A stretch of 40,983 bases of DNA from positions 1 through 40,983 of IMG/VR virus record IMGVR_UViG_3300045242_000094. One strand, 5' to 3'. The translations under genes and the position numbers were made by a program. Positions 1 through 40,983 of the stretch are shown piece after piece; position 1 is the first letter of the stretch, and every line of letters starts with the position of its first letter. The notes under the pieces were generated by a model. That model worked only from the letters and a program-made list of their open reading frames with translations. It was not told the DNA's origin and made no database searches. The DNA comes from a virus.

Positions 1-127
1 GCCGGGGGGGGCGGCGTGGCGCGCCCCGAAATGGCTTCAAGGCGTTGGAACAGAGGCTGGCAGCAGCCGACGCCAGTCGAGGCACGACGATCGAGGCAAC
101 CGCCGAGGAAGTGGCGGAAATCCACGA
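1..127. repeat. Terminal direct repeat, left copy (circular closure)
   Basis: Bases 1-127 are identical to 40857-40983. The right copy continues an open frame (the DUF1376 gene) that carries on without a break into the left copy and stops at 173, so the contig closes as a circle of 40,856 bp. A 127-base overlap is a common k-mer size of short-read assemblers, so the repeat is probably an assembly overlap and not a biological terminal redundancy (inference). Confidence 0.95.
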
Positions 128-839: not shown

Positions 840-1048
840 CCCCCCGCCCGCTCCAGTGCTTCGAGCTGGCCAACCTGGTCGCCGAGGTCTCCCACGACCT
901 CCGCGGCTGCCATCCCAACGACGCTCTCGGCGTCGCCCAGTGGATCGCCACCAACGCCCTGCGCTGCTGGTCCCCCGAGGACCGCATCCCGCTCGCCGCC
1001 GAATGGTGCGACCACGTCATCTCCACCGTCCGTGAGTCCCTGGATTGA
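836..1048 (+). CDS. Small hypothetical early protein
   Basis: 70 residues from ATG 836, overlapping the previous stop as ATGA. The product starts MTPRPLQCFELANLVAEV and contains two Cys and two Trp residues in a helical context; no domain recognised. It is the last small gene before the NusG-like protein and ends at TGA 1046-1048. Confidence 0.6.
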   Translation: MTPRPLQCFELANLVAEVSHDLRGCHPNDALGVAQWIATNALRCWSPEDRIPLAAEWCDHVISTVRESLD

Positions 1049-1050
1049 TC

Positions 1051-1632
1051 ATGCCGCTTGACGCATCCGTGATGGCAGCCGTAGATACCGACAGCCGCTC
1101 ACAGCGCGTCCACGAGCGGTGCGGTAGCCGTTGGGGCGTGGCGCACACCCACCCGCAAGCCGAGCAATGGGCCCGCGCCAACCTGTTGCGACAGGGATAC
1201 GACGTCTGGTGGCTCACACGCCAAGCGCTGCGACGCGATCCAGTCACCCGCACCATGACGCGACGGGTCGACGTCCCGCTGTTCACCAGCTACATCTTCG
1301 TGGCAATACCACTGACCCAATGGGGGCCAATCTGCCACACACTCGGCATCAAGCGCCTGCTGATGAGCGGCGAGAAACCCTACACCCTCACAGAGGCCGC
1401 TCAGAGCGCGCTACAGGCCGTCGAGGCTCTGTCCGCCACTCACCCCCCAACCGACAGCTGGGCGGCGTGTGGGGTGCCTTGCAGCCTCGGCACGGGGGCG
1501 TTTAGAGGGCACGAGGGGGTGATCGTGGCGGTTGATGCTCGGAAGGGGACTGCCGACGTGGCGATGCTGATATTCGGGGAACTGCGGACGGTCAGCGTCG
1601 CGCTAAAATCGTTGCAAGAGCGTGGTAGCTAA
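1051..1632 (+). CDS. NusG/RfaH-like transcription antitermination protein
   Basis: 193 residues from ATG 1051 (a TTG at 1045 overlapping the previous stop is an alternative start). Residues 28 to about 107 match the NusG N-terminal (NGN) pattern: RWGVAHTHPQAEQWARANLLRQGY, a basic middle and the hydrophobic LFTSYIFVAI strand. Residues about 145-190 read as a KOW domain (FRGHEGVIVAVDARKGTADVAMLIFGELRTVSV). NusG-family proteins bind the RNA polymerase clamp and suppress pausing or termination. It lies at the end of the early operon just before the packaging genes, so it may drive late transcription through the many hairpins in the late region (inference). Confidence 0.8.
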   Translation: MPLDASVMAAVDTDSRSQRVHERCGSRWGVAHTHPQAEQWARANLLRQGYDVWWLTRQALRRDPVTRTMTRRVDVPLFTSYIFVAIPLTQWGPICHTLGIKRLLMSGEKPYTLTEAAQSALQAVEALSATHPPTDSWAACGVPCSLGTGAFRGHEGVIVAVDARKGTADVAMLIFGELRTVSVALKSLQERGS

Positions 1633-8531: not shown

Positions 8532-9206
8532 ATGGCGAAGGCTGCTGGATACCTACCCCACACGGGCCCGATCGTCACGCGGGCCGAGGCCAAGGCGGCC
8601 GGGGCCAAGCTATACTTCACCGGGAAGCCGTGTCCGAAGGGGCACATCAGCGAGCGGTGGATCGCAAGCTACTCATGCGATACGTGCCAGCGCTTCGATC
8701 TGATCGCGCTGTATCAGGGCAACTACAAAGGCCGCCGAGACCGCAACCGATCCACCGCTAAGGCGTATCGCGAGGCCGCGCGAGAGAAGAACCGCATTCT
8801 CTCGCGGCAACAGTATGAAGCCCGCAAGCCATATATGGCGGCGTGGCAGGCCGCCAACGCAGACAAAATCCGGGAGTATCGCCGCGCTCGCGATGCCGCA
8901 ATGTCAGACGAACAGCGCGAAAAGAAGCGCGTTATCGTTCGCAATCGTCGTGCCCGCAAGCGAGGGAATGGTGGGAAACACACCGCCGCCCAGATCAGGG
9001 AACTGTTAATCAGACAGCGACACAGATGTATATACTGTCCAGCAGATCTGCGGCGTGGCTATCACGCAGACCACATCATGCCGCTTGCCCGTGGCGGGTC
9101 GAACGACATCCGCAACATCCAGTTGCTGTGTCCGACCTGCAACGACAGCAAGGGCTACAGCCACCCTGTTGCATGGGCACAGCAGAAGCGGGGACGACTG
9201 CTGTAG
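8532..9206 (+). CDS. HNH endonuclease (probable homing endonuclease)
   Basis: 224 residues from ATG 8532 with ribosome binding site GGAGGTG. The N-terminus carries a zinc-type pair (GKPCPKGH ... CDTCQRF), a long basic helical middle follows, and the C-terminal HNH is CIYCPADL ... HADHIMPLARGGSNDIRNIQLLCPTCNDSKG, with the catalytic DH pair and the two closing Cys. This is a complete free-standing homing-type nuclease. It sits directly before the portal gene, a favoured site for such elements. Confidence 0.85.
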   Translation: MAKAAGYLPHTGPIVTRAEAKAAGAKLYFTGKPCPKGHISERWIASYSCDTCQRFDLIALYQGNYKGRRDRNRSTAKAYREAAREKNRILSRQQYEARKPYMAAWQAANADKIREYRRARDAAMSDEQREKKRVIVRNRRARKRGNGGKHTAAQIRELLIRQRHRCIYCPADLRRGYHADHIMPLARGGSNDIRNIQLLCPTCNDSKGYSHPVAWAQQKRGRLL

Positions 9207-15955: not shown

Positions 15956-16933
15956 ATGAACAACGAAAATGGCGCTTGGACAGTTTGCTGCATAAGGGGA
16001 TGCGACGCGCCGCTGCACTCAAACGGTCTCTGCCTCAATCATCAGCGCCGCAATCAACTCTACGGCTCACCGGTTGCCTCAACGATAGTCGGGTGGCGCT
16101 GGCGGCACCTCTCTCATGAGGAGAGGTTCTGGGTGTCGATAAAGAAATGCGATGATGGCTGCTGGTTGTGGATGTCCGGGCGAGATGGAGACGGCTACGG
16201 GACATTCCATGCGGAACACAACGGTGCAAGTTACAAGCGAGCGCATCGCTATAGTTACGCATTGCACAAAGGGAAAATCCCGACACTCCTCAGTGTCTGT
16301 CATACATGCGACGTACGAGCCTGCGTTAACCCAGACCATCTGTTCCTCGGCACAAATACCGAGAACATGAACGACAAGATGGCCAAGGGGCGCCATCGAA
16401 CTATCAACGGCGAGAACCACTATCGCGCGATACTCACAGAGGAACAGGCCCGCGCCATCCTACTGGATCCACGGCCTCATACACAGATCGCCAACAGCTA
16501 CAACGTAGCCCGGACGACGATCAGCAGTCTCAAGGCACGGCACTCATGGCCAGAGCTTGGCGAGGCCAAGGGCGTCAAGGGAAAGCGTATCGGCCCGCGA
16601 ACAGGTGTAAGCGATAGGGTCACGCCCGAGATGGTGCGGGAAATCCTAGCCAGCGAGGAACGCGGCAAAGACCTTGCCGCCAAGTTCGACATCACGCCGC
16701 AGATGGTCAGCAACATCCGCCATCGCCGCAACTGGGCACATATCGAGGGAGACGTCGCCAAAGCGTCCACTCGTAGCGGAGCCGGCAACCACGATGCGAA
16801 ACTCTCGACACAGGACATAAGAGCCATCCGCGCCAGCGATCAGATGGGCGCGCGCATAGCCGAGCAGTACGGCGTCTCACGGTCCACCATCTCAAGCATC
16901 CGCAACCGACGCACTTGGACCCACATCGAATAG
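15956..16933 (+). CDS. HNH homing endonuclease with triple C-terminal HTH repeats
   Basis: 325 residues from ATG 15956 with GGGAGG upstream. A Cys/His zinc motif opens the protein (CCIRGCDAPLHSNGLCLNH). The HNH_3-type core is WLWMSGRDGDGYGTF ... RAHRYSYALHKGKIP ... CHTCDVRACVNPDHLFLGTNTENMNDK. The C-terminus holds three copies of a 40-45 residue HTH module, each with a pattern I-A-x-x-Y/F-x-[VI]-[AST] and a final W: LTEEQARAILLD..., VTPEMVREILAS... and LSTQDIRAIRAS.... The tandem HTHs should give long site recognition. It is inserted just after the coat gene and its terminator. Confidence 0.85.
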   Translation: MNNENGAWTVCCIRGCDAPLHSNGLCLNHQRRNQLYGSPVASTIVGWRWRHLSHEERFWVSIKKCDDGCWLWMSGRDGDGYGTFHAEHNGASYKRAHRYSYALHKGKIPTLLSVCHTCDVRACVNPDHLFLGTNTENMNDKMAKGRHRTINGENHYRAILTEEQARAILLDPRPHTQIANSYNVARTTISSLKARHSWPELGEAKGVKGKRIGPRTGVSDRVTPEMVREILASEERGKDLAAKFDITPQMVSNIRHRRNWAHIEGDVAKASTRSGAGNHDAKLSTQDIRAIRASDQMGARIAEQYGVSRSTISSIRNRRTWTHIE

Positions 16934-17495: not shown

Positions 17496-18035
17496 ATGAA
17501 CCAAGATGAAAAGCGCGAATACAACCGTCTATACGCAATCGCCAATAAGGAGCGCATCGCCGCTAGACGTGAGGCGCGACGGGCTGGGCTTGGTGGCGAT
17601 GTCCGACGATGCAGCGTTTTGGGATGCAACGGCGTCTATGACGCAGCAGGATATTGTGGGCGACATTACATGGCGTTCCGGCGCCACGGAGACCCGACAG
17701 CGCCAGTCCAACTCCAGATACGCGGCAGGACGCTTGAGGAGCGTTTCATACTTCGCGTCAAGAAGGGGCGCGGGTGCTGGGAATGGACCGGCGCTCGTAA
17801 CTGGAAGGGCTATGGCGTGCTGCGCGTAGATGAAAGAAACCAGTTAGCCCATCGGATCGCCTATCAATTAGCGTACGGTGAAACCCCGTTTGATCTCTAC
17901 GTGCTCCATCATTGCGACAACCCAGGCTGTGTTCGGCCAGATCATCTGTTCCTAGGCACGCTCGCTGATAACAACGCGGACATGCGCGCAAAAGGCCGCA
18001 ACTGGTGGCCAGGAAAGGCGAGAATAAATGATTGA
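17496..18035 (+). CDS. HNH homing endonuclease
   Basis: 179 residues from ATG 17496. A basic N-terminus and a zinc-type motif (RRCSVLGCNGVYDAAGYCGRHYMAFRRHGDP) precede the HNH_3 core (CWEWTGARNWKGYGVL ... AHRIAYQLAYGETP ... LHHCDNPGCVRPDHLFLGTLADNNADM). It lacks the C-terminal HTH repeats of the 15956 gene but shares its core organisation. It overlaps the following connector gene by 8 bases, so it is coupled to an essential gene. Confidence 0.85.
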   Translation: MNQDEKREYNRLYAIANKERIAARREARRAGLGGDVRRCSVLGCNGVYDAAGYCGRHYMAFRRHGDPTAPVQLQIRGRTLEERFILRVKKGRGCWEWTGARNWKGYGVLRVDERNQLAHRIAYQLAYGETPFDLYVLHHCDNPGCVRPDHLFLGTLADNNADMRAKGRNWWPGKARIND

Positions 18036-26305: not shown

Positions 26306-27351
26306 TGCCGCCGTTCGTCGTGTTCGCGTTACCCCGAAGCAGATCGAAGTGGCTGTCCGCATTCCTCACCTACGGCGACTGGATCTGCGGTCACGACGAG
26401 ATCCGTCATTGCAGCTCGCTGGACGACGTGAGCGCCTGGCTGTCGCAACCGTGCGCCGGCAGCGTTGAAACCGCTGCAGCCCCGTTCTGGCGCCTGCTAC
26501 GGCCCGATGTGCGGGTGGTCACACTCAGGCGCCCGGTGGCCGACGTGGTGGCGTCCTACGAACGAGCCGGGGTAGCGTTCGATGCCGCGGTGATGACACG
26601 CATCATCGAGCAGCTGGAGCGCAAGCTGGACCAGATCGAGGCGCGGCGAGCGGGCGTGCTGGCGACGACGTACGACGAGCTCGGCACTGAAGCGGGCTGC
26701 GCGCGGGTATTCGAGCATTGCCTGCAGGCACCACACGATCATGCATGGTGGGCAGCGGTTTCGCCGCTCAACATCCAGATCAACCAAGCGCACATGCTGC
26801 GGCATTTCATCGCGCGCAAACCGCAGATCGATAAGCTGGCCAAGATCGCCAAGCATCGCTGCCTCGCCACCATGAAGCGGCAACCGCGCGAGGCTGACGG
26901 GGTGACGTTCCAGTGCGAGCCGTTCCGCGAGTTCTACCGCGACGCGCAGCCATTGTTCGCTGAGCATCTGGTGCAGACTGGGCAATCACCGGATGACCAC
27001 GCACGCAAGAACGTGCCTTTGTTGGAACGGCTGGATGACGATGGGTGCCTGCATGTGTTCACCGGACGCAGCAACGGTCGGATGTTCTCGTATCTGCTAT
27101 CGGTTATCGCGCCATCGCTCGACTCGCCGACTGAAATGCTGGCTGAGCAGACAATCTTTTTCGCTGATCCGTCCTGGCCCGGCCTGGGCATGAAAACACA
27201 GCGCGCGGCGATTGCCGATCTCCGGGAGCGTGGTGTCAACCGTGTTCTTATGCGGGCCGGGCGTCGTGGCAGCGGTCCTCGCCTCGGGGCGCTGTTTCGC
27301 AGGTTAGGAGCGGAGCCGTTTGGCGATCTGTATAATCTATCACTGGATTGA
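26305..27351 (+). CDS. Sulfotransferase-like / GNAT acetyltransferase-like fusion
   Basis: 348 residues from ATG 26305. The N-terminal half looks like a P-loop sulfotransferase: FALPRSRSKWLSAFL with a PRSRSKW phosphosulfate-binding motif at 10-16, and VVTLRRPVADVVASYERAG matching the 3'-phosphate-binding strand-helix. The C-terminal half, from about residue 190, resembles a GNAT acetyltransferase (GRMFSYLLSVIAPSLDSPTEMLAEQTIFFADPSWPGLGMKTQRAAIADLRERGVNRVLMRAG). Together they could modify sugars or other small groups on virion or host surface molecules (inference). The last 104 bases overlap the leftward HNH gene on the other strand. Confidence 0.7.
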   Translation: MPPFVVFALPRSRSKWLSAFLTYGDWICGHDEIRHCSSLDDVSAWLSQPCAGSVETAAAPFWRLLRPDVRVVTLRRPVADVVASYERAGVAFDAAVMTRIIEQLERKLDQIEARRAGVLATTYDELGTEAGCARVFEHCLQAPHDHAWWAAVSPLNIQINQAHMLRHFIARKPQIDKLAKIAKHRCLATMKRQPREADGVTFQCEPFREFYRDAQPLFAEHLVQTGQSPDDHARKNVPLLERLDDDGCLHVFTGRSNGRMFSYLLSVIAPSLDSPTEMLAEQTIFFADPSWPGLGMKTQRAAIADLRERGVNRVLMRAGRRGSGPRLGALFRRLGAEPFGDLYNLSLD

Positions 27352-27976
27352 GCATGTGCCGCCGGTTAACCGGTTCCAATGCGGATTGAATGGTTTGGCC
27401 TGCCGCAAGCCGTGCGCGGATCGTGGTCAGTCCTAGGCCTGTCCATTTGCTCCAGTCGCTAAGTGAGCCTAGCCGTCCACCATAAGAAATGAGACGGACC
27501 TGGCTTGTGTTGAGAGCTTGTTCCTTTGATGTTGCCCAACGGCAGTTGGCTTTACAATACGGACCGTCGTTGTCGATGCGGTCTAACGTGCGGCCGGGAG
27601 GGCGCTCTCCCATATCAGAGATAAATCTCTCCAGTCCGTCTGGCCCTCGCCATCCAGCGCTAACGCTAATCCCGCGTCCGCCGTATCGGTGATATGTAGG
27701 GGATGTTGGGTCGAAACACCGGTCAATCATCGCGACCCAGGTGTTATAGAGGGGATGGGAAGTCATCCCGTGAGTAAGCAACTTATCCCTTACCAGGCAG
27801 CCGCAGGATGTAGCGCCGCCTCGCTTAAGCACAGAGCTGACGACCTTATGGGGGTTGCCGCACGTGCATCGGCATAGAAAGTTGGCTTGGTTCTTATATT
27901 TGTTTGGGAATACCCTTCGGATGACTGTCAAACGACCAAAGGTAAGGCCGATGAGGTTTAAAGCCGGACGACCCAA
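27248..27976 (-). CDS. HNH/AP2-type homing endonuclease, leftward
   Basis: 242 residues read leftward from a TTG start at 27976, supported by GGGAG eight bases upstream and by the typical MGRPALNLIGLTFGRLTVI opening. A Cys-rich zinc region (CRCTCGNPHKVVSSVLKRGGATSCGC) precedes the endonuclease core (HPLYNTWVAMIDRCFDPTSPTYHRYGGRGISVSAGWRG ... GRTLDRIDNDGPYCKANCRWATSKEQALNTS). A C-terminal HTH-like part follows. The final 33 codons run antisense through the end of the sulfotransferase-GNAT gene. It separates the tail genes from the ejection-protein genes. Confidence 0.8.
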   Translation of the reverse strand: MGRPALNLIGLTFGRLTVIRRVFPNKYKNQANFLCRCTCGNPHKVVSSVLKRGGATSCGCLVRDKLLTHGMTSHPLYNTWVAMIDRCFDPTSPTYHRYGGRGISVSAGWRGPDGLERFISDMGERPPGRTLDRIDNDGPYCKANCRWATSKEQALNTSQVRLISYGGRLGSLSDWSKWTGLGLTTIRARLAAGQTIQSALEPVNRRHMLNPVIDYTDRQTAPLLTCETAPRGEDRCHDARPA

Positions 27977-35650: not shown

Positions 35651-35814
35651 GGCGCGCTGTCCTTGAGCGCACGCTCCAGTCCGTTAAGGAATGTCTCGGC
35701 GGTGTTCTGGAGGTGCTGTGCCAGGGAGCGCAGGGCCTCGTGGTAGTCGGCGCCGAGATCGAGGTGACGCAGGAAATACTCGGCCAGCAGCTCGCATTGC
35801 GGGTCGTACGCCAT
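35647..35814 (-). CDS. Small acidic helical protein
   Basis: 55 residues read leftward from ATG at 35814. ATGA overlaps on both sides (with the genes ending at 35814 and starting at 35650) support translation. Sequence MAYDPQCELLAEYFLRHLDLGADYHEALRSLAQHLQNTAETFLNGLERALKDSAP, predicted helical. Function unknown. Confidence 0.6.
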   Translation of the reverse strand: MAYDPQCELLAEYFLRHLDLGADYHEALRSLAQHLQNTAETFLNGLERALKDSAP

Positions 35815-36017
35815 CACGCTGCCCTCCGAGCTTGCTGCCGCTCAACCGCTGCCTCGAAGGCGGCGCGCTCGGGGATCAGCCAGTCGCGCCTGAACCGGGC
35901 GATGTCGTGGAGGGCGAGGCGGCGCCAGAAGCCCCTAAACTGCGGGCTGGCCGTTCGCCATTCCCCGATTTCATTGAGCAGCTCGTCGAGGGCCTGCTGG
36001 CGCAGCAAATGCTGCAT
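35814..36017 (-). CDS. First small gene of the leftward recombination operon
   Basis: 67 residues from ATG at 36017 (MQHLLRQQALDELLNEIGEWRTASPQFRGFWRRLALHDIARFRRDWLIPERAAFEAAVERQQARRAA). The same frame stays open to about 36293, but the upstream part is low-complexity and Arg/Gly/Ser-rich and crosses the regulatory zone, so the shorter start is favoured; neither has a clear ribosome binding site. Function unknown. Stop overlaps the next start as ATGA. Confidence 0.5.
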   Translation of the reverse strand: MQHLLRQQALDELLNEIGEWRTASPQFRGFWRRLALHDIARFRRDWLIPERAAFEAAVERQQARRAA

Positions 36018-36368
36018 GGAGAATAGGTTGCAGCCCGCGTTATTCGCGCGTGATTTGGTGTGCCAATCACTGTCGCACGGTGCAGTTGCGAAACTCTCGC
36101 CCGTGACACTTGCGCTACCGTCCCGTGACGGGGGTAGAGTGGTTTCGGGCGCGCCTATCTCGCCAGCAATGCCTAGCCGCGACGTTCCGGAAGAGCCATC
36201 GGCTCGGCCCCCTGAGCAGGGACACCGACGATGTCGGAGGAGGAGGCCGTCGCCGTGCCGTACGGTAACAATAAGCATTTCGCGCTTCCACAAACTGGAA
36301 GCAACCTTACAGGACGTAAGGTTCTAGTGCAAGGTTCTAGTGGTGACCTTAGCGAAATTGTTCGCGAG
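36018..36368. promoter_or_regulatory. Leftward control region with operator-like repeats
   Basis: No well supported gene. A perfect inverted repeat AACCTTAC (36303-36310) / GTAAGGTT (36316-36323) is followed by two direct copies of AAGGTTCTAGTG (36318-36329 and 36331-36342) and a further ACCTTAG (36346-36352). The GTAAGG half-site recurs before the Cro-like gene (36895-36905), so these look like operators for the CI/Cro pair controlling the leftward operon. The base composition here is less G+C-rich than the flanks. The -35 and -10 boxes cannot be fixed. Confidence 0.6.
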
Positions 36369-36794
36369 CTAGCGACCGAAGCCCAAAATGGTGCTCTGCA
36401 TGGGCGCGCCATCGATGCTCATTTCATGGCCAAGCGACTGAGCGCCTTGGCCGCCTGTCACACACTGAACGAATTGCGCCAATTGGAACAACTGCAGTTT
36501 CTCTGGCATTAGCCGGAACAGCCGCAGCAGCTGATACTCGGCGTTGTCGCGCGTCGTCAGCGCGGGCGGTGGTTCTGGTATTGCCAGTTCCGCGCCCTCT
36601 CCGAGCAGTTCGGATACTCGGATATTGAGAACCTGCGCGATCTTCTGTATATACTTGGTGGCGACCTTGCGACGGTTCTTGCGGTTCTCCTACAGCGTCA
36701 CCGTCGCGACATGAACACCAAGCTTGGCAGCAAGTTCGCTCTGCGTCATTCCCAGATGCTCGCGTGCCTCGCGCAGCCGGTCGCCAACGTCCAT
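36369..36794 (-). pseudogene. CI-like repressor with in-frame amber codon
   Basis: Read leftward from ATG at 36794, the frame gives MDVGDRLREAREHLGMTQSELAAKLGVHVATVTL, then TAG at 36692-36690 (codon 35), then continues as ENRKNRRKVATKYIQKIAQVLNIRVSELLGEGAEL ... LLRLFRLMPEKLQLFQLAQF to a TAG at 36371-36369, 141 codons in all. The interrupted part is a standard HTH_3 domain in which the stop replaces the residue of the usual x-W-E-N motif, so TGG to TAG is a single change. UAG ends other genes here (for example coat), so general recoding is unlikely. Either the repressor is dead, it is suppressed, or the contig carries a base error or mutant variant. Confidence 0.8.
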
Positions 36795-36835
36795 ATCCAC
36801 GATACACCTCAGAGTCGGGTTGGGCAGCGTGTCTA

Positions 36836-36905
36836 GGTTAACGTAGTTAAGCCGGCCTTAGCAACTCATTCGCGCTATTGTAATCCCGCCTGCTCTTACC
36901 GTAAG
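36836..36905. promoter_or_regulatory. Divergent CI/Cro control region
   Basis: Between the leftward repressor start (36794) and the rightward Cro-like start (36914) lie an imperfect palindrome GGTTAAC-GTA-GTTAAGCC near 36836-36853 and a perfect CTTAC-C-GTAAG at 36895-36905, immediately upstream of the Cro-like ATG. The second shares its half-site with the leftward operators at 36303-36323. This is the layout of a lambda-type genetic switch. Confidence 0.6.
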
Positions 36906-36913
36906 GTAGGCTG

Positions 36914-37150
36914 ATGGCACCCCGGCCTCTCCAGCCTGGCGAGCGTGACGCAGCCCTGGAACTGGCGCTGAGCCCCCGTATGGCGGTCACGGAGATTGCC
37001 GAGGCCCTCGGCGTGTCCAGGGCGGCGGTCAGCCAGTGGCGGCGGGTGCCGGAGCGGCACGTTGCCGTGGTGGCGCGGCTCACGGGCATCTCGAAGCGGC
37101 GGCTGCGGCCGGACTTGTTCCCGGTGCGGCAGCGGCTGGCGGCTGAATGA
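36914..37150 (+). CDS. Cro-like HTH regulator (YdaS-type)
   Basis: 78 residues from ATG 36914. The HTH is MAVTEIAEALGVSRAAVSQWRRVPERHVAVVARLTGISKRRLRPDLFP, the YdaS/Cro pattern with a final R-P-D-[LI]-[FY]-P signature typical of antirepressor/Cro proteins. It is divergent from the CI-like gene, with an operator palindrome directly upstream, and begins the rightward early operon. The stop overlaps the next start as ATGA. Confidence 0.85.
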   Translation: MAPRPLQPGERDAALELALSPRMAVTEIAEALGVSRAAVSQWRRVPERHVAVVARLTGISKRRLRPDLFPVRQRLAAE

Positions 37151-37659
37151 CCCCCCCCGGCGATGACCCCCGCCCGATGCGCGTTGGTGGCGGCGTCCAG
37201 ACGGCCGAGGTGCGGGTCACCACGGGCCGCGCCTGGCGGCTGACGGAGGACATCCCGCGGGAAAAAGACATCCAGGCGACAGTCAGGCACGGGCTCGACG
37301 TATTGCTGATGCCGCCGGCGGTGTGGTTCGCGATGCCGGTCGGCCACATCAAGCTGACCAAGGCGCAGGCCGCGCGCCTCACGGAGATCGGCCTAAAGCG
37401 CGGCCTTCCCGACATCTTCGTGCTCCATCAGCGCCTCTATGGGGTTGAGCTGAAAAGACCTGGCGGCCAGTTGTCGCGGACGAGGATCGTGCGGACGCGT
37501 CGCGGCGGGCTGCGCGAGCTTGCAGGCCAGCGGGAGACCTTCCCGGTGCTTGAGGCCGCAGGGCTGACGATCGCCGTGTGCGACAGCCTGCCGGCCGTCC
37601 TGGCGTTTCTCACGGCCTGTGGCGTGCCCTTGAGGCCCTACACGGACATGGCCGCGTGA
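37147..37659 (+). CDS. VRR-NUC domain nuclease
   Basis: 170 residues from ATG 37147. Residues about 39-160 form the VRR-NUC type PD-(D/E)XK domain: EKDIQATVRHGLDVLLMP, GLKRGLPDIFVLH with the acidic residue at about 89, YGVELKRPGGQLS with E101 and K103, and the closing REtFPVLEAAGLTIAVCDSLPAVLAFL. Phage VRR-NUC proteins are stand-alone structure-specific or Holliday-junction-type nucleases used in recombination and replication. Its place early in the rightward operon fits this. Confidence 0.85.
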   Translation: MTPPGDDPRPMRVGGGVQTAEVRVTTGRAWRLTEDIPREKDIQATVRHGLDVLLMPPAVWFAMPVGHIKLTKAQAARLTEIGLKRGLPDIFVLHQRLYGVELKRPGGQLSRTRIVRTRRGGLRELAGQRETFPVLEAAGLTIAVCDSLPAVLAFLTACGVPLRPYTDMAA

Positions 37660-37757
37660 CGGTGCTCCGCGCCCTTGCCCTGACGGCTTGCGCGTGGGCG
37701 CTGAGCGGTGGGGCTACGTGGCTGGCGGTGGTGGCATTTTCTGAGCGGGGAATGTGA
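37656..37757 (+). CDS. Membrane microprotein
   Basis: 33 residues from GTG 37656, overlapping the VRR-NUC stop as GTGA; its own stop overlaps the next ATG as TGATG. The sequence (TVLRALALTACAWALSGGATWLAVVAFSERGM) is one hydrophobic span with a polar end. The overlaps at both ends are the evidence for translation; function unknown. Confidence 0.45.
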   Translation: MTVLRALALTACAWALSGGATWLAVVAFSERGM

Positions 37758-38389
37758 TGGTGCAATTGGCGCAGGCGTTGCGTGCGGCTGGCGTGGTGAC
37801 GATTGAGGAGCAACTGCGCTCGATTGCCATCGAGGTGCTCGCGGCACACGGCACCAGTCGTATTGCAGCGGCCAACGCGCTCTATGCCCGTGTGCGGCAC
37901 GATGCGGATCTGCTGGATGGATTGTTCGAGCCGTATCGGGAGTTGGCGCTGCGCCGGCTGCTGGGCGGCATCGAAAGCGAGATGCGCCGGGACGAGCTTA
38001 CTCGGCAGGAAAGGGCGCGCGGCGGGGGCCGCATAGCCTCTGACGACCATGCTGGATCTGCCCCCAACGAGCGCCCCGGTGGGGGCCACAAAGCGCGTGA
38101 GTACCAGATTCCTGGTGCCCCCACCCCTCCCAATCGCCGCGCGGCACAGGACAGCGTGGGGACCGTGCTGCGCCTGACCATGCTCGATACCTTCAGGATC
38201 GATGGGATGCCGATCGGTGACGTGCAGGCTGGTGTGGCGCGAGCGTGGGCGCGGCGCGAGGGCCGACATGTCCGATGGGTCACCATGCTGACCTCGAACG
38301 TCCCCGCTGCCGATCCGATCCGGCGCTGGATCAGCGCGGAGGATGCGGACGACCTATGGGCTCGCTCGGTGGAGGGCGACGATGCCTAG
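37757..38389 (+). CDS. Early protein with two TIGR-like units inside its linker
   Basis: 210 residues from ATG 37757. The N-terminal helical part is about residues 1-88 (TIEEQLRSIAIEVLAAHGTSRIAAANALYARVRHDADLLDGLFEPYRELALRRLLGGIESEM). The C-terminal part (about 124-210) includes VLRLTMLDTFRIDGMPIGDVQAGVARAWARREGRHVRWVTMLTSNVPAADPIRRW, which looks helical and nucleic-acid related. Between them residues about 89-123 (Gly/Pro-rich, unstructured) are encoded by two copies of the 36-nt structured repeat. The stop TAG overlaps the start of the Tas-like gene. I do not recognise the family. Confidence 0.65.
   Translation: MVQLAQALRAAGVVTIEEQLRSIAIEVLAAHGTSRIAAANALYARVRHDADLLDGLFEPYRELALRRLLGGIESEMRRDELTRQERARGGGRIASDDHAGSAPNERPGGGHKAREYQIPGAPTPPNRRAAQDSVGTVLRLTMLDTFRIDGMPIGDVQAGVARAWARREGRHVRWVTMLTSNVPAADPIRRWISAEDADDLWARSVEGDDA
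38022..38125. repeat. TIGR-like array part 1: units 1-2
   Basis: Two units of GGCC-N10-TG-N4-CC-N10-TGCC. The 28-base variable cores are 38031-38058 and 38088-38115, 57 bases apart. Unit 2 is closed by GGTGGGGGC (38078-38086) with GCCCCCACC (38117-38125); unit 1 has a 6-bp stem. The cores differ from each other except at the TG and CC positions. Both lie in frame in the 37757 gene's linker. Confidence 0.8.
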
Positions 38390-39467
38390 GAAACGCAAGA
38401 CAGAGATTGCCGGCCAGCCAGGCGTTGGAGCCCATACGGTCAATGCCGGTGATGCGGGGGTCGTTGGCCACATGCGCTCTGAGACCCAGACAACGCTTGC
38501 CGACGACACGGAGGCGGCCGGAAACTACGCGGTAGCCAGTAGGCAAATGCCGCCTCCGCGTGGCGTGGAGGGGGCCGAAGGTCAAATGGTCTCCAGGCGC
38601 ACGGTGCCCCCTCCACCTCCTCCCCTGATCGCGGAGCTTATCGAATGGCAGCGACGCCGGGTGCATGCGATCCGCTCGCAGTCTCAGTGTGATCGATCAT
38701 GCGATGCTTATGTGTCGCGTTATATCGGGTATCACGCCGGCCTACCGGAGGCCGAGCGGCTGGCGCTTATGAAGCGGGCCGCGAAGATGCGGGCTGACGT
38801 AGCGAAGTCTCGGGGCCGAGCATCAGATGAAGACCAGTGGACTGCTGCTCCGGAGGCGGCGGACGGCGGGGGCCAGGGAAGTTCTGAATCCCACGAGCTC
38901 ATTGCCCCCGACGCCTGCTTGCCCATCATCGTCAACACCATCCAGTCACGCGCCGGGTGGGATGCAATGCGCGTGGATGCCGAGCGTCGCATGCGTGAGA
39001 TCGCGCGGACGTTCGCGATCTATGAACGGTGCGCAGCCATCGCCGGGTTCGGTGACCTTGGCCTCGCCTGCATCATCGCAGAGGCCGGCAACGATCTGAC
39101 CAGCTATCCGCACTACTACCATCTGTGGAAACGCCTCGGGCTGGCGCCGTTCCGCGGCAAGGCGATGTCGCGGTTCAAGGCGGCTGAGCTGACCAAGGCT
39201 GAGTGGTCCGAGCTTGGCTACAATCCGATGCGACGCGGCAGGATGGCGGGCGATGTCGGCGCTGCGCTGTTCTTCGCCAAGGGCCGCAATGTATATGGCG
39301 ACGTCTATGCCCAGCGCCGCGAGCAGACGGCGCTGACGCACCCGGATTGGACGCCGGCGCACAGCGATGCGGATGCCAGGCGCATCATGCTGAAGGCGCT
39401 GGTGGAGGATCTGTGGCGCTGGTGGGTCGAGGCGGCGCGGGCCGCTGATCTGGCGGCTGCCGCGTGA
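38382..39467 (+). CDS. Tas-like protein (Nop/IS110 C-terminal-like domain), candidate TasA
   Basis: 361 residues from ATG 38382, overlapping the previous stop. Residues about 9-78 and 143-177 are low-complexity segments encoded by TIGR-like units. Residues about 79-142 are a helical arm (LIAELIEWQRRRVHAIRSQ ... ALMKRAAKMRADVAKSR). From about 178 to the end is a domain resembling the IS110 Transposase_20/Nop fold: FAIYERCAAIAGFGDLGLACIIAEAGNDLTSYPHYYHLWKRLGLAPF, then RRGRMAGDVGAALFFAKGRNVYGDVYAQRREQTA and DADARRIMLKALVEDLWRWWVEA. No RuvC DEDD, HNH or other nuclease motif is visible, so a nuclease-less TasA-type, RNA-guided DNA-binding role is the best hypothesis. The true start may be downstream of unit 6. 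A degenerate IS110 relative is the alternative. Confidence 0.7.
   Translation: MPRKRKTEIAGQPGVGAHTVNAGDAGVVGHMRSETQTTLADDTEAAGNYAVASRQMPPPRGVEGAEGQMVSRRTVPPPPPPLIAELIEWQRRRVHAIRSQSQCDRSCDAYVSRYIGYHAGLPEAERLALMKRAAKMRADVAKSRGRASDEDQWTAAPEAADGGGQGSSESHELIAPDACLPIIVNTIQSRAGWDAMRVDAERRMREIARTFAIYERCAAIAGFGDLGLACIIAEAGNDLTSYPHYYHLWKRLGLAPFRGKAMSRFKAAELTKAEWSELGYNPMRRGRMAGDVGAALFFAKGRNVYGDVYAQRREQTALTHPDWTPAHSDADARRIMLKALVEDLWRWWVEAARAADLAAAA
38406..38616. repeat. TIGR-like array part 2: units 3-6
   Basis: Four units with cores at 38416-38443, 38470-38497, 38520-38547 and 38577-38604. The closing stems differ but all pair: ATTGCCGGC/GCCGGTGAT (two G-U), GTCGTTGGC/GCCGACGAC (one G-U), GGAGGCGGC/GCCGCCTCC, and GTGGAGGGGGC/GCCCCCTCCAC. 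This is clear covariation. They encode, in frame, residues about 9-78 of the Tas-like ORF. Confidence 0.85.
38810..38910. repeat. TIGR-like array part 3: units 7-8
   Basis: Two units 57 bases apart, cores 38818-38845 and 38875-38902. The first ends TGCT where the others have TGCC and has a 7-bp stem with two G-U pairs; the second is closed by CGGGGGC (38867-38873) with GCCCCCG (38904-38910). They encode residues about 143-177 of the Tas-like ORF, exactly between its N-terminal helical part and its Nop/IS110-like domain. Confidence 0.8.
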
Positions 39468-39468
39468 G

Positions 39469-39861
39469 TATCGGGGCCGATCGTTGGGTGGATACCAGGC
39501 TGTCACTGCCCCGATGTCAGCGAGGGGAGGGGGCCATTATCTCGGTGTATCCCGACGATGCCGTGCCCCCTCTGCTTGCTGACGAGATGACCCGGGCCGG
39601 AGGCACAATGATTACCGCCAACGAATTGCCGGGGCATATCGGGGCCGTATCCATAATGACGCCCACGCGCGTCTTGCCCCGATGCCGGTGGGTGGAGGGG
39701 GCCAGCGTAGATGTGGATCCCACGATTTGTTTGCCCCCTCTGCCTGCCGACGTGCTGACCTTGGCCGATGAGACACTGAATACCGAAGAGGTGTTGCCGG
39801 GGTCGTCATGGAACCGCGCGGCCAATGGCACAGAGCATACCGAACGGAGCGTGCCGCGCGG
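39469..39861. repeat. TIGR-like array part 4: units 9-15, main array after tas
   Basis: Seven units begin two bases after the Tas-like stop, with cores starting at 39479, 39536, 39599, 39647, 39704, 39767 and 39824. Six have 9-bp closing stems, for example TATCGGGGC/GCCCCGATG (twice), GGAGGGGGC/GCCCCCTCT (second of each triplet, near-identical), GACCTTGGC/GCCGGGGTC (two G-U) and CCGCGCGGC/GCCGCGCGG; one (core 39599) is mismatched. Units 9-11 (39469-39636) and 12-14 (39637-39804) are adjacent 168-base blocks that share stems and linkers while the 28-base cores are unrelated. Core consensus: N10-TG-R-N-N-M-CC-R-N9. Confidence 0.85.
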
Positions 39862-40283: not shown

Positions 40284-40983
40284 GCATCCTTCCGCACCCG
40301 TTGACGCCGCCTGACTGTGATCTGCGAGGCTTTGAGTGGATGCAGCTCTGGGGCCACCGGATGTTCACCAGCAGCTGGTACCGCGCCGCTCGCAAGGATG
40401 GGCGTGGGGGTATTGCGTCTCTCAAGCTCTATTGGGCAGCAATGCTGCAGTGCCCCGCTGGCAGCCTCCCGAATGACGAGGAAGAGCTTTGCATGCTCGC
40501 TGATTTTGGTGAGGACATGCGGGCGTGGAAGAGGCACCGTCTGGTTGCCATGCACGGGTTCGTCCTTTGCTCCGACAATCGCTGGTATCACCCGGTGGTG
40601 GCAGAGCAGGTGCTCGATGCTTACGACCGACGGTTGAAATCAGCGCGCACCCGTGAGGTTGATCGGGAGCGTTTGAAACGGTGGAGGGCGAGCCACAACG
40701 GGGCGCAACCACCCGACAAACCAAACGGAGAAACGCCTAATGAAACGCGTTTCGAAACGCGGCCCGAAACGGGGGGTGAAACCCCCGACGAAACGTCGCG
40801 CGCGACAGGACAGTACCAGACAAGACAAGAAAGACCCCCCCTAGGCCCCCCCCAAAGCCGGGGGGGGCGGCGTGGCGCGCCCCGAAATGGCTTCAAGGCG
40901 TTGGAACAGAGGCTGGCAGCAGCCGACGCCAGTCGAGGCACGACGATCGAGGCAACCGCCGAGGAAGTGGCGGAAATCCACGA
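40280..40983 (+). CDS. DUF1376-type replication protein (N-terminal part, crosses contig junction)
   Basis: Starts at GTG 40280, overlapping the stop of the upstream gene as GTGA, and continues through the junction to the TGA at 171-173, giving about 249 residues. Residues 1 to about 100 resemble the DUF1376 (YdaU-like) domain found at the N-terminus of phage replication-initiation proteins, with aromatic and acidic residues around WMQLWGHRMFTSSWY and the ASLKLYWAAMLQCPAGSLP segment. A charged middle rich in repeated NETRFETRPET-like residues precedes a basic, Gly/Arg-rich stretch encoded by the poly-C/poly-G tracts. It follows a small winged-helix gene and precedes a possible helicase loader, which supports a role in replication initiation. 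The poly-C/G tracts could cause slippage. The family call is from sequence style only. Confidence 0.75.
   Translation, partial: MSILPHPLTPPDCDLRGFEWMQLWGHRMFTSSWYRAARKDGRGGIASLKLYWAAMLQCPAGSLPNDEEELCMLADFGEDMRAWKRHRLVAMHGFVLCSDNRWYHPVVAEQVLDAYDRRLKSARTREVDRERLKRWRASHNGAQPPDKPNGETPNETRFETRPETGGETPDETSRATGQYQTRQERPPLGPPQSRGGRRGAPRNGFKALEQRLAAADASRGTTIEATAEEVAEIH
40857..40983. repeat. Terminal direct repeat, right copy
   Basis: Second copy of the 127-base repeat. It starts at a run of eight G (40860-40867) that faces a run of eight C (40846-40853), which together can form a very strong hairpin inside the DUF1376 coding sequence. The junction therefore lies at a sequence that is hard to sequence, which fits assembly ending there. 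Confidence 0.95.

Follow-up and report, generated by a model that had tools for sequence, protein, structure and literature searches.

A premature amber codon in the Cro/CI-type repressor gene of an uncultivated P22-type phage, probably a recent nonsense allele

Introduction

What does a single amber codon mean that interrupts the DNA-binding domain of a phage repressor gene in an otherwise intact frame? The question arises from IMG/VR record IMGVR_UViG_3300045242_000094, of which the whole stretch of 40,983 nucleotides, in the following called the window, was analyzed. The initial annotation offered a virulent variant of a temperate phage, a suppressor host or a polymorphic site as explanations. 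We think it likely that the TAG arose recently from TGG by a genuine nonsense change of one base, and that it inactivates a Cro/CI-type repressor. As close relatives have an intact gene, an ordinary knocked-out allele, as has long been known from clear-plaque phage mutants, is the most likely case.

The window carries an exact direct terminal repeat (Table 1) and thus represents a complete genome of 40856 bp, closed or permuted. It encodes a structural set with P22-type coat, portal, scaffold, head-closure and DNA-ejection proteins. The coat protein has 186 relatives in viral contigs, which places the phage in a large group of uncultivated phages, and its identity to named phages reaches only about 42% at best. 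In five of the coat relatives (L005, L006, L007, L009 and L065) the tblastn matches are longer than in the others by about 350-560 nt, possibly because an insertion or intron lies close to the 5' end of the coat gene, or because an upstream match was joined. Four genes for HNH-type endonucleases are found at 15956-16933, 17496-18035 and 8532-9206 (+) and at 27248-27976 (-), of which two follow closely after the coat gene, a density reminiscent of homing endonucleases. A NusG/RfaH-like protein with homologues in G001, G002 and G003 is encoded at 1036-1632 (+) (RfaH model, E 5e-11, below the cut-off) and could be an antiterminator.

Table 1. Features of the window discussed in the text
Feature	Position	Strand	Remarks
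Direct terminal repeat	1..127; second copy 40857-40983	+	exact, 127 bp
Inverted repeat and tandem copies downstream of the repressor	36303..36342	.	AACCTTAC-N5-GTAAGGTT and tandem AAGGTTCTAGTG copies; identical in G001
Cro/CI-type repressor gene (HTH_3), disrupted	36369..36800	-	likely GTG start 36800, SD-like AGGTG upstream, terminal TAG 36371-36369
Premature TAG	36690..36692	-	codon 35 from ATG 36794, codon 37 from GTG 36800; TGG in G001, L122, L123
Presumed operator/promoter region separating the divergent repressor and Cro-like genes	36801..36913	.	contains CTTACCGTAAG and GTTAACGTAGTTAAG
Cro-like regulator, divergent from repressor	36914..37150	+	YdaS 30.9 bits (cut-off 30); P22_Cro 29.0, just under cut-off 30.2
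Conserved uncharacterized gene following cro	37147..37659	+	96-98% identical in G001, L122, L123; weak endonuclease-like PHROG matches
TIGR-Tas-like stem-loop array, guide units	38028-39854	+	at least 13 units
Tas-like gene	38343-39467	+	NCBIfam TIGR-Tas endonuclease model, E 1.7e-13, 51 bits vs cut-off 100

The repressor gene

Translation of the minus strand from 36794 to 36369 yields 142 codons, with an internal TAG at codon 35 (36692-36690) and a terminal TAG. The resulting protein reads MDVGDRLREAREHLGMTQSELAAKLGVHVATVTL, stop, ENRKNRRK...GFGR, stop, which agrees with the earlier description of a frame that is open except for one TAG. When read through, the protein scores 52.3 bits against Pfam HTH_3 (cut-off 23), compared with 47.5 bits in the genome scan with the TAG counted; it also matches PHROG repressor families and, in phmmer searches, ImmR, SinR and a 434 repressor variant. 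The C-terminal region (residues about 70-141) belongs to no recognized family. Among named phages there was no match to the repressor or the immunity region, and genome contigs scanned with the repressor gave nothing.

The nearest relative of the repressor is found in IMGVR_UViG_3300047471_000628 (G001), with 97% amino acid identity when the stop is read through. Two further records, L122 and L123, which were located via the neighboring gene, carry a repressor orthologue of 56% amino acid identity, and their repressor genes are identical to each other. Judged by this conservation, the frame at 36369-36794 is a real gene; a spurious open frame was considered and is excluded by the two levels of orthologues and the low dN given below. 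The gene probably starts at GTG 36800 instead of ATG 36794, and would thus extend over 36369-36800. The start region reads GTG GAT ATG GAC GTT in the window and in G001, and GTG GAA AAG AAG GAT GTT in L122, which has no ATG at the position corresponding to 36794. AGGTG is located just upstream of the GTG, and this start codon and its ribosome-binding context are conserved in L122. The placement of the amber at codon 35 is therefore correct as counted from the ATG, while from the likely GTG start it becomes codon 37.

The structural position of the stop could be derived from an AlphaFold2 model of the intact G001 protein. The model shows a five-helix HTH (helices 3-13, 18-25, 29-36, 46-56 and 60-64; mean pLDDT about 90 up to residue 60), and Foldseek matches this fold to ImmR, SinR, 434 Cro and P22 c2. 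As helix 3, the recognition helix, comprises residues 29-36, residue 35 lies at its end. A complete DNA-binding domain is thus encoded in G001, L122 and L123, but not in the window. A restart of translation in frame downstream of the TAG was also considered; it cannot rebuild the HTH domain, as the first ATG, GTG or TTG beyond the stop lies near codon 96, far past the HTH.

Origin of the stop codon

At the amber site, all three orthologous records possess TGG, which confirms that the amber is one base away from a tryptophan codon. Because G001 as well as the outgroup L122 have TGG, the stop is derived on the window branch. The initial annotation ascribed the W of a W-E-N motif to the family at this site. 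This is true of the direct orthologues G001, L122 and L123, which share TVTLWEN, but not of the group as a whole: in its other repressors the residue is V, I, Y or W, and only the following E is invariant. No further contig with the TAG allele was found, as a DNA pattern permitting TAG or TGG retrieved only G001 among the records searched, which may not include those nearest to the window. The related records have 16 other HTH_3 matches, all of them free of internal stops.

The repressor genes of the window and G001 differ in 15 codons, comprising 10 synonymous changes, 4 missense changes and 1 nonsense change. For the whole gene, dN is 0.016 and dS 0.103, and for codons 36-117 dN is 0 and dS 0.085. 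This implies that purifying selection acted on the sequence after the stop during most of the period in which the two lineages have been separate, and that the lesion is recent. The missense sites are found at codons 118-131, three on the window branch (codons 118, 122 and 131) and one on the G001 branch, weakly hinting at a relaxed constraint near the C-terminus on the window branch, in numbers that are too small to test.

The TAG is known from one metagenome-assembled consensus, which speaks against a null allele. It is conceivable that the population mostly has TGG and that the assembly picked up a rare base or an error. A single record, the TGG of the intact homologues and a repressor that appears to be under full constraint as far as codon 117 would all be in line with such a consensus error or a polymorphism of low frequency. 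Of the 2694 one-base routes to a stop in the genes listed, 40 (about 1.5%) lie in the repressor, so that a random consensus error could have hit it as well as any other place. However, short-read consensus errors of the TGG/TAG kind are rare. Furthermore, no other internal stop occurs in the checked frames, and the sole stop is situated in a gene that lytic growth is not expected to require. The hint of relaxed constraint near the C-terminus points in the same direction, albeit with few numbers. We consider a consensus error or polymorphism to be rather unlikely, and the allele is probably real in the population.

Decoding of the amber codon

The view that the code is not generally altered was upheld. 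Recoding of TAG (genetic code 15) was considered and is very unlikely, since TAG terminates the coat gene here and in 51 of 77 coat relatives, and since no tRNA genes were found in the complete genome. A search for Rfam families in the window was negative. In the 29 gene frames that were checked, the repressor TAG is the only internal stop, and in a comparison with 2,710 ORFs of relatives it is the only one that is backed by homology. According to our reading of the list, the other stops in that comparison fall in antisense or upstream-extended frames. The TAG-recoded phage phAss-1 differs in this respect, having TAG in 41 ORFs (PMC10607447).

A more specific possibility, the suppressor host of the initial annotation, obtained no positive evidence. 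A suppressor tRNA of the host, or a tRNA of the phage itself, could permit the full or conditional production of a functional repressor, and the preserved frame after the stop would suit this idea, but such a frame is also expected when a stop is recent. The genome encodes no tRNA, a strong suppressor would lengthen the coat protein by 41 residues, and the single internal TAG contrasts with what has been described for phAss-1. Suppression therefore appears highly improbable, and we give slightly less credence still to its narrower form, in which a conditional read-through would make the repressor level and any repressed or lysogenic state dependent on the suppressor background of the host.

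The immunity cassette and the question of a temperate parent

The repressor gene and the Cro-like gene are divergently oriented, and the latter matches YdaS and P22_Cro/repressor families. The region between them is near-identical in G001 and partly conserved in L122, and its repeats are presumed to be candidate operators. Downstream of the repressor, the block 36240-36342, which includes the inverted repeat and the tandem copies, is conserved even in L122, with about 76% identity overall, and might be a second operator. Over 35814-37733 the window and G001 are 92% identical, whereas most of their other genes, among them most of the structural ones, are not alike at the DNA level, indicating an exchange of the immunity cassette between genomes that differ elsewhere.

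It is less clear whether the parent was temperate. Searches for tyrosine (PF00589) and serine (PF00239) recombinases, which detected their positive controls, gave no match in the complete genome, and thus there is no sign of an integrating temperate phage. Likewise, PF00589 was not matched in six contigs that share the neighboring immunity-region gene, and a tyrosine integrase is present in only 3 of 31 related records (G016, G017 and G019). Integration by Xer/dif in place of an integrase was tried as an alternative and rejected, as the best dif-like score was 13/22, compared with 14-15 in shuffled sequence. The P22-type podovirus group of the window and its relatives G001-G037 is mostly devoid of a tyrosine integrase (and of a serine recombinase where tested), and several members have kept the repressor/Cro cassette. 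The proposal of a virulent variant of a temperate phage is therefore partly supported. The loss of repressor function is the simplest consequence of the stop, and, as expected for a virulent repressor mutant, the genome is intact apart from the inactivating lesion in its repressor, but the temperate parent is doubtful, as the genome has no tyrosine or serine integrase and its relatives have no PF00589 match. Lysogeny of the parent is thus itself only presumed, which counts against the null-allele reading.

These observations also bear on a variant of our preferred explanation that is compatible with it, namely that the stop reflects decay and not adaptation. The lineage could already have been obligately lytic, with the repressor as a remnant of an exchanged cassette and the nonsense mutation being neutral. 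The missing recombinases in the complete genome, the scarcity of integrases among the relatives and the movement of the 35.8-37.7 kb cassette between genomes are all in favor of it. On the other hand, the repressor is intact and under purifying selection in G001, L122 and L123, which are likewise without a tyrosine integrase match, suggesting that it has some use even there. We regard decay as a possibility that merits consideration, although somewhat less than an even chance would be assigned to it. As the gene is intact in G001 and L122/L123, the repressor does something in these phages, perhaps in immunity, in a plasmid-like prophage or in timing, and the intact repressor/Cro cassette in several members without integrase raises the modest question of what the switch does there.

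A TIGR-Tas-like neighboring locus

Close to the immunity cassette, the window contains a Tas-like gene and an array of guide-like units that resemble TIGR-Tas stem-loop arrays (PMC12045711). The Tas-like Nop-type protein was modeled with low confidence, and the top five Foldseek matches of this model are all TasH complexes (E 0.03-0.13); no nuclease domain was detected in it. A guide unit is composed of a stem, GCC, two spacers split by TG..CC, TGC and the complementary stem, with 34 nt from GCC to TGC. At least 13 such box C/D-like units were counted in 38028-39854, compared with 0.3 per strand in shuffled sequence. Five units lie within the tas coding sequence, where they fall on linkers (residues 1-91 and 156-190) that flank a coiled coil and are predicted to be disordered. 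A text search of the TIGR-Tas paper PMC12045711 found no mention of a guide array that overlaps the coding sequence of its own effector.

In four Tas-like homologues, 0 of 24 spacer-encoded residues are invariant, compared with 200 of 281 residues outside the units. Spacers differ between the relatives L135, L136 and L137, and stems covary. Among 49 units from four genomes, which are related so that not all units are independent, the stem positions covary as well: positions 6 and 7, which had been left out of the unit selection for this count, pair in 35/49 and 41/49 units (shuffle maxima 29 and 36). The idea that array spacers target the genome of the phage itself, with the repressor among the targets, was rejected, since matches were near chance and none was located in the repressor.

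Consequences and comparison with known systems

If the TAG is a genuine nonsense mutation, the translated chain would comprise 34-36 residues and break off where the DNA-recognition helix ends, leaving a fragment without HTH helices 4 and 5 and without the C-terminal region. The intact protein presumably represses the divergent operon. Its loss would lead to constitutive expression of the Cro-like operon and the genes downstream, and the phage would grow lytically where intact relatives can stay repressed. The probable phenotype would be obligate lysis or constitutive lytic growth, and the window allele would correspond in nature to the clear-plaque (cI) mutants obtained in the laboratory. By itself the allele alters nothing that is known of phage repressors. 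It is, however, plausibly a repressor-null allele of natural origin in an environmental phage, and with the intact gene of its close relative G001 it provides a clean comparison for studying how frequently variants restricted to lytic growth appear and spread in nature.

The HTH fold of the intact window homologue is common to ImmR of ICEBs1, SinR, 434 Cro and P22 c2, whereas the C-terminal region of the window family is not recognized. Single nonsense mutations in a repressor gene have been described for the Cluster A mycobacteriophage mutants Bxb1 phiTM45 and Et2Brutus phiTM39, in which they are linked to the escape from superinfection immunity; for Bxb1, a single rep nonsense mutation results in this escape (PMC6550527). 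These repressors are of a different family, and the effect was shown experimentally there (PMC6550527). The other parallel, a nearly exact one, is the clear-plaque mutant C3 of the lactococcal phage TP901-1 (PMC4892519), which was selected in the laboratory, unlike the window, a metagenome consensus without integrase. In C3 the nonsense codon is located two residues after the recognition helix, and the activity of PL was taken as fully unrepressed (PMC4892519). In both C3 and the window, one nonsense codon interrupts a short phage repressor where the recognition helix of its HTH ends, and DNA binding is not expected.
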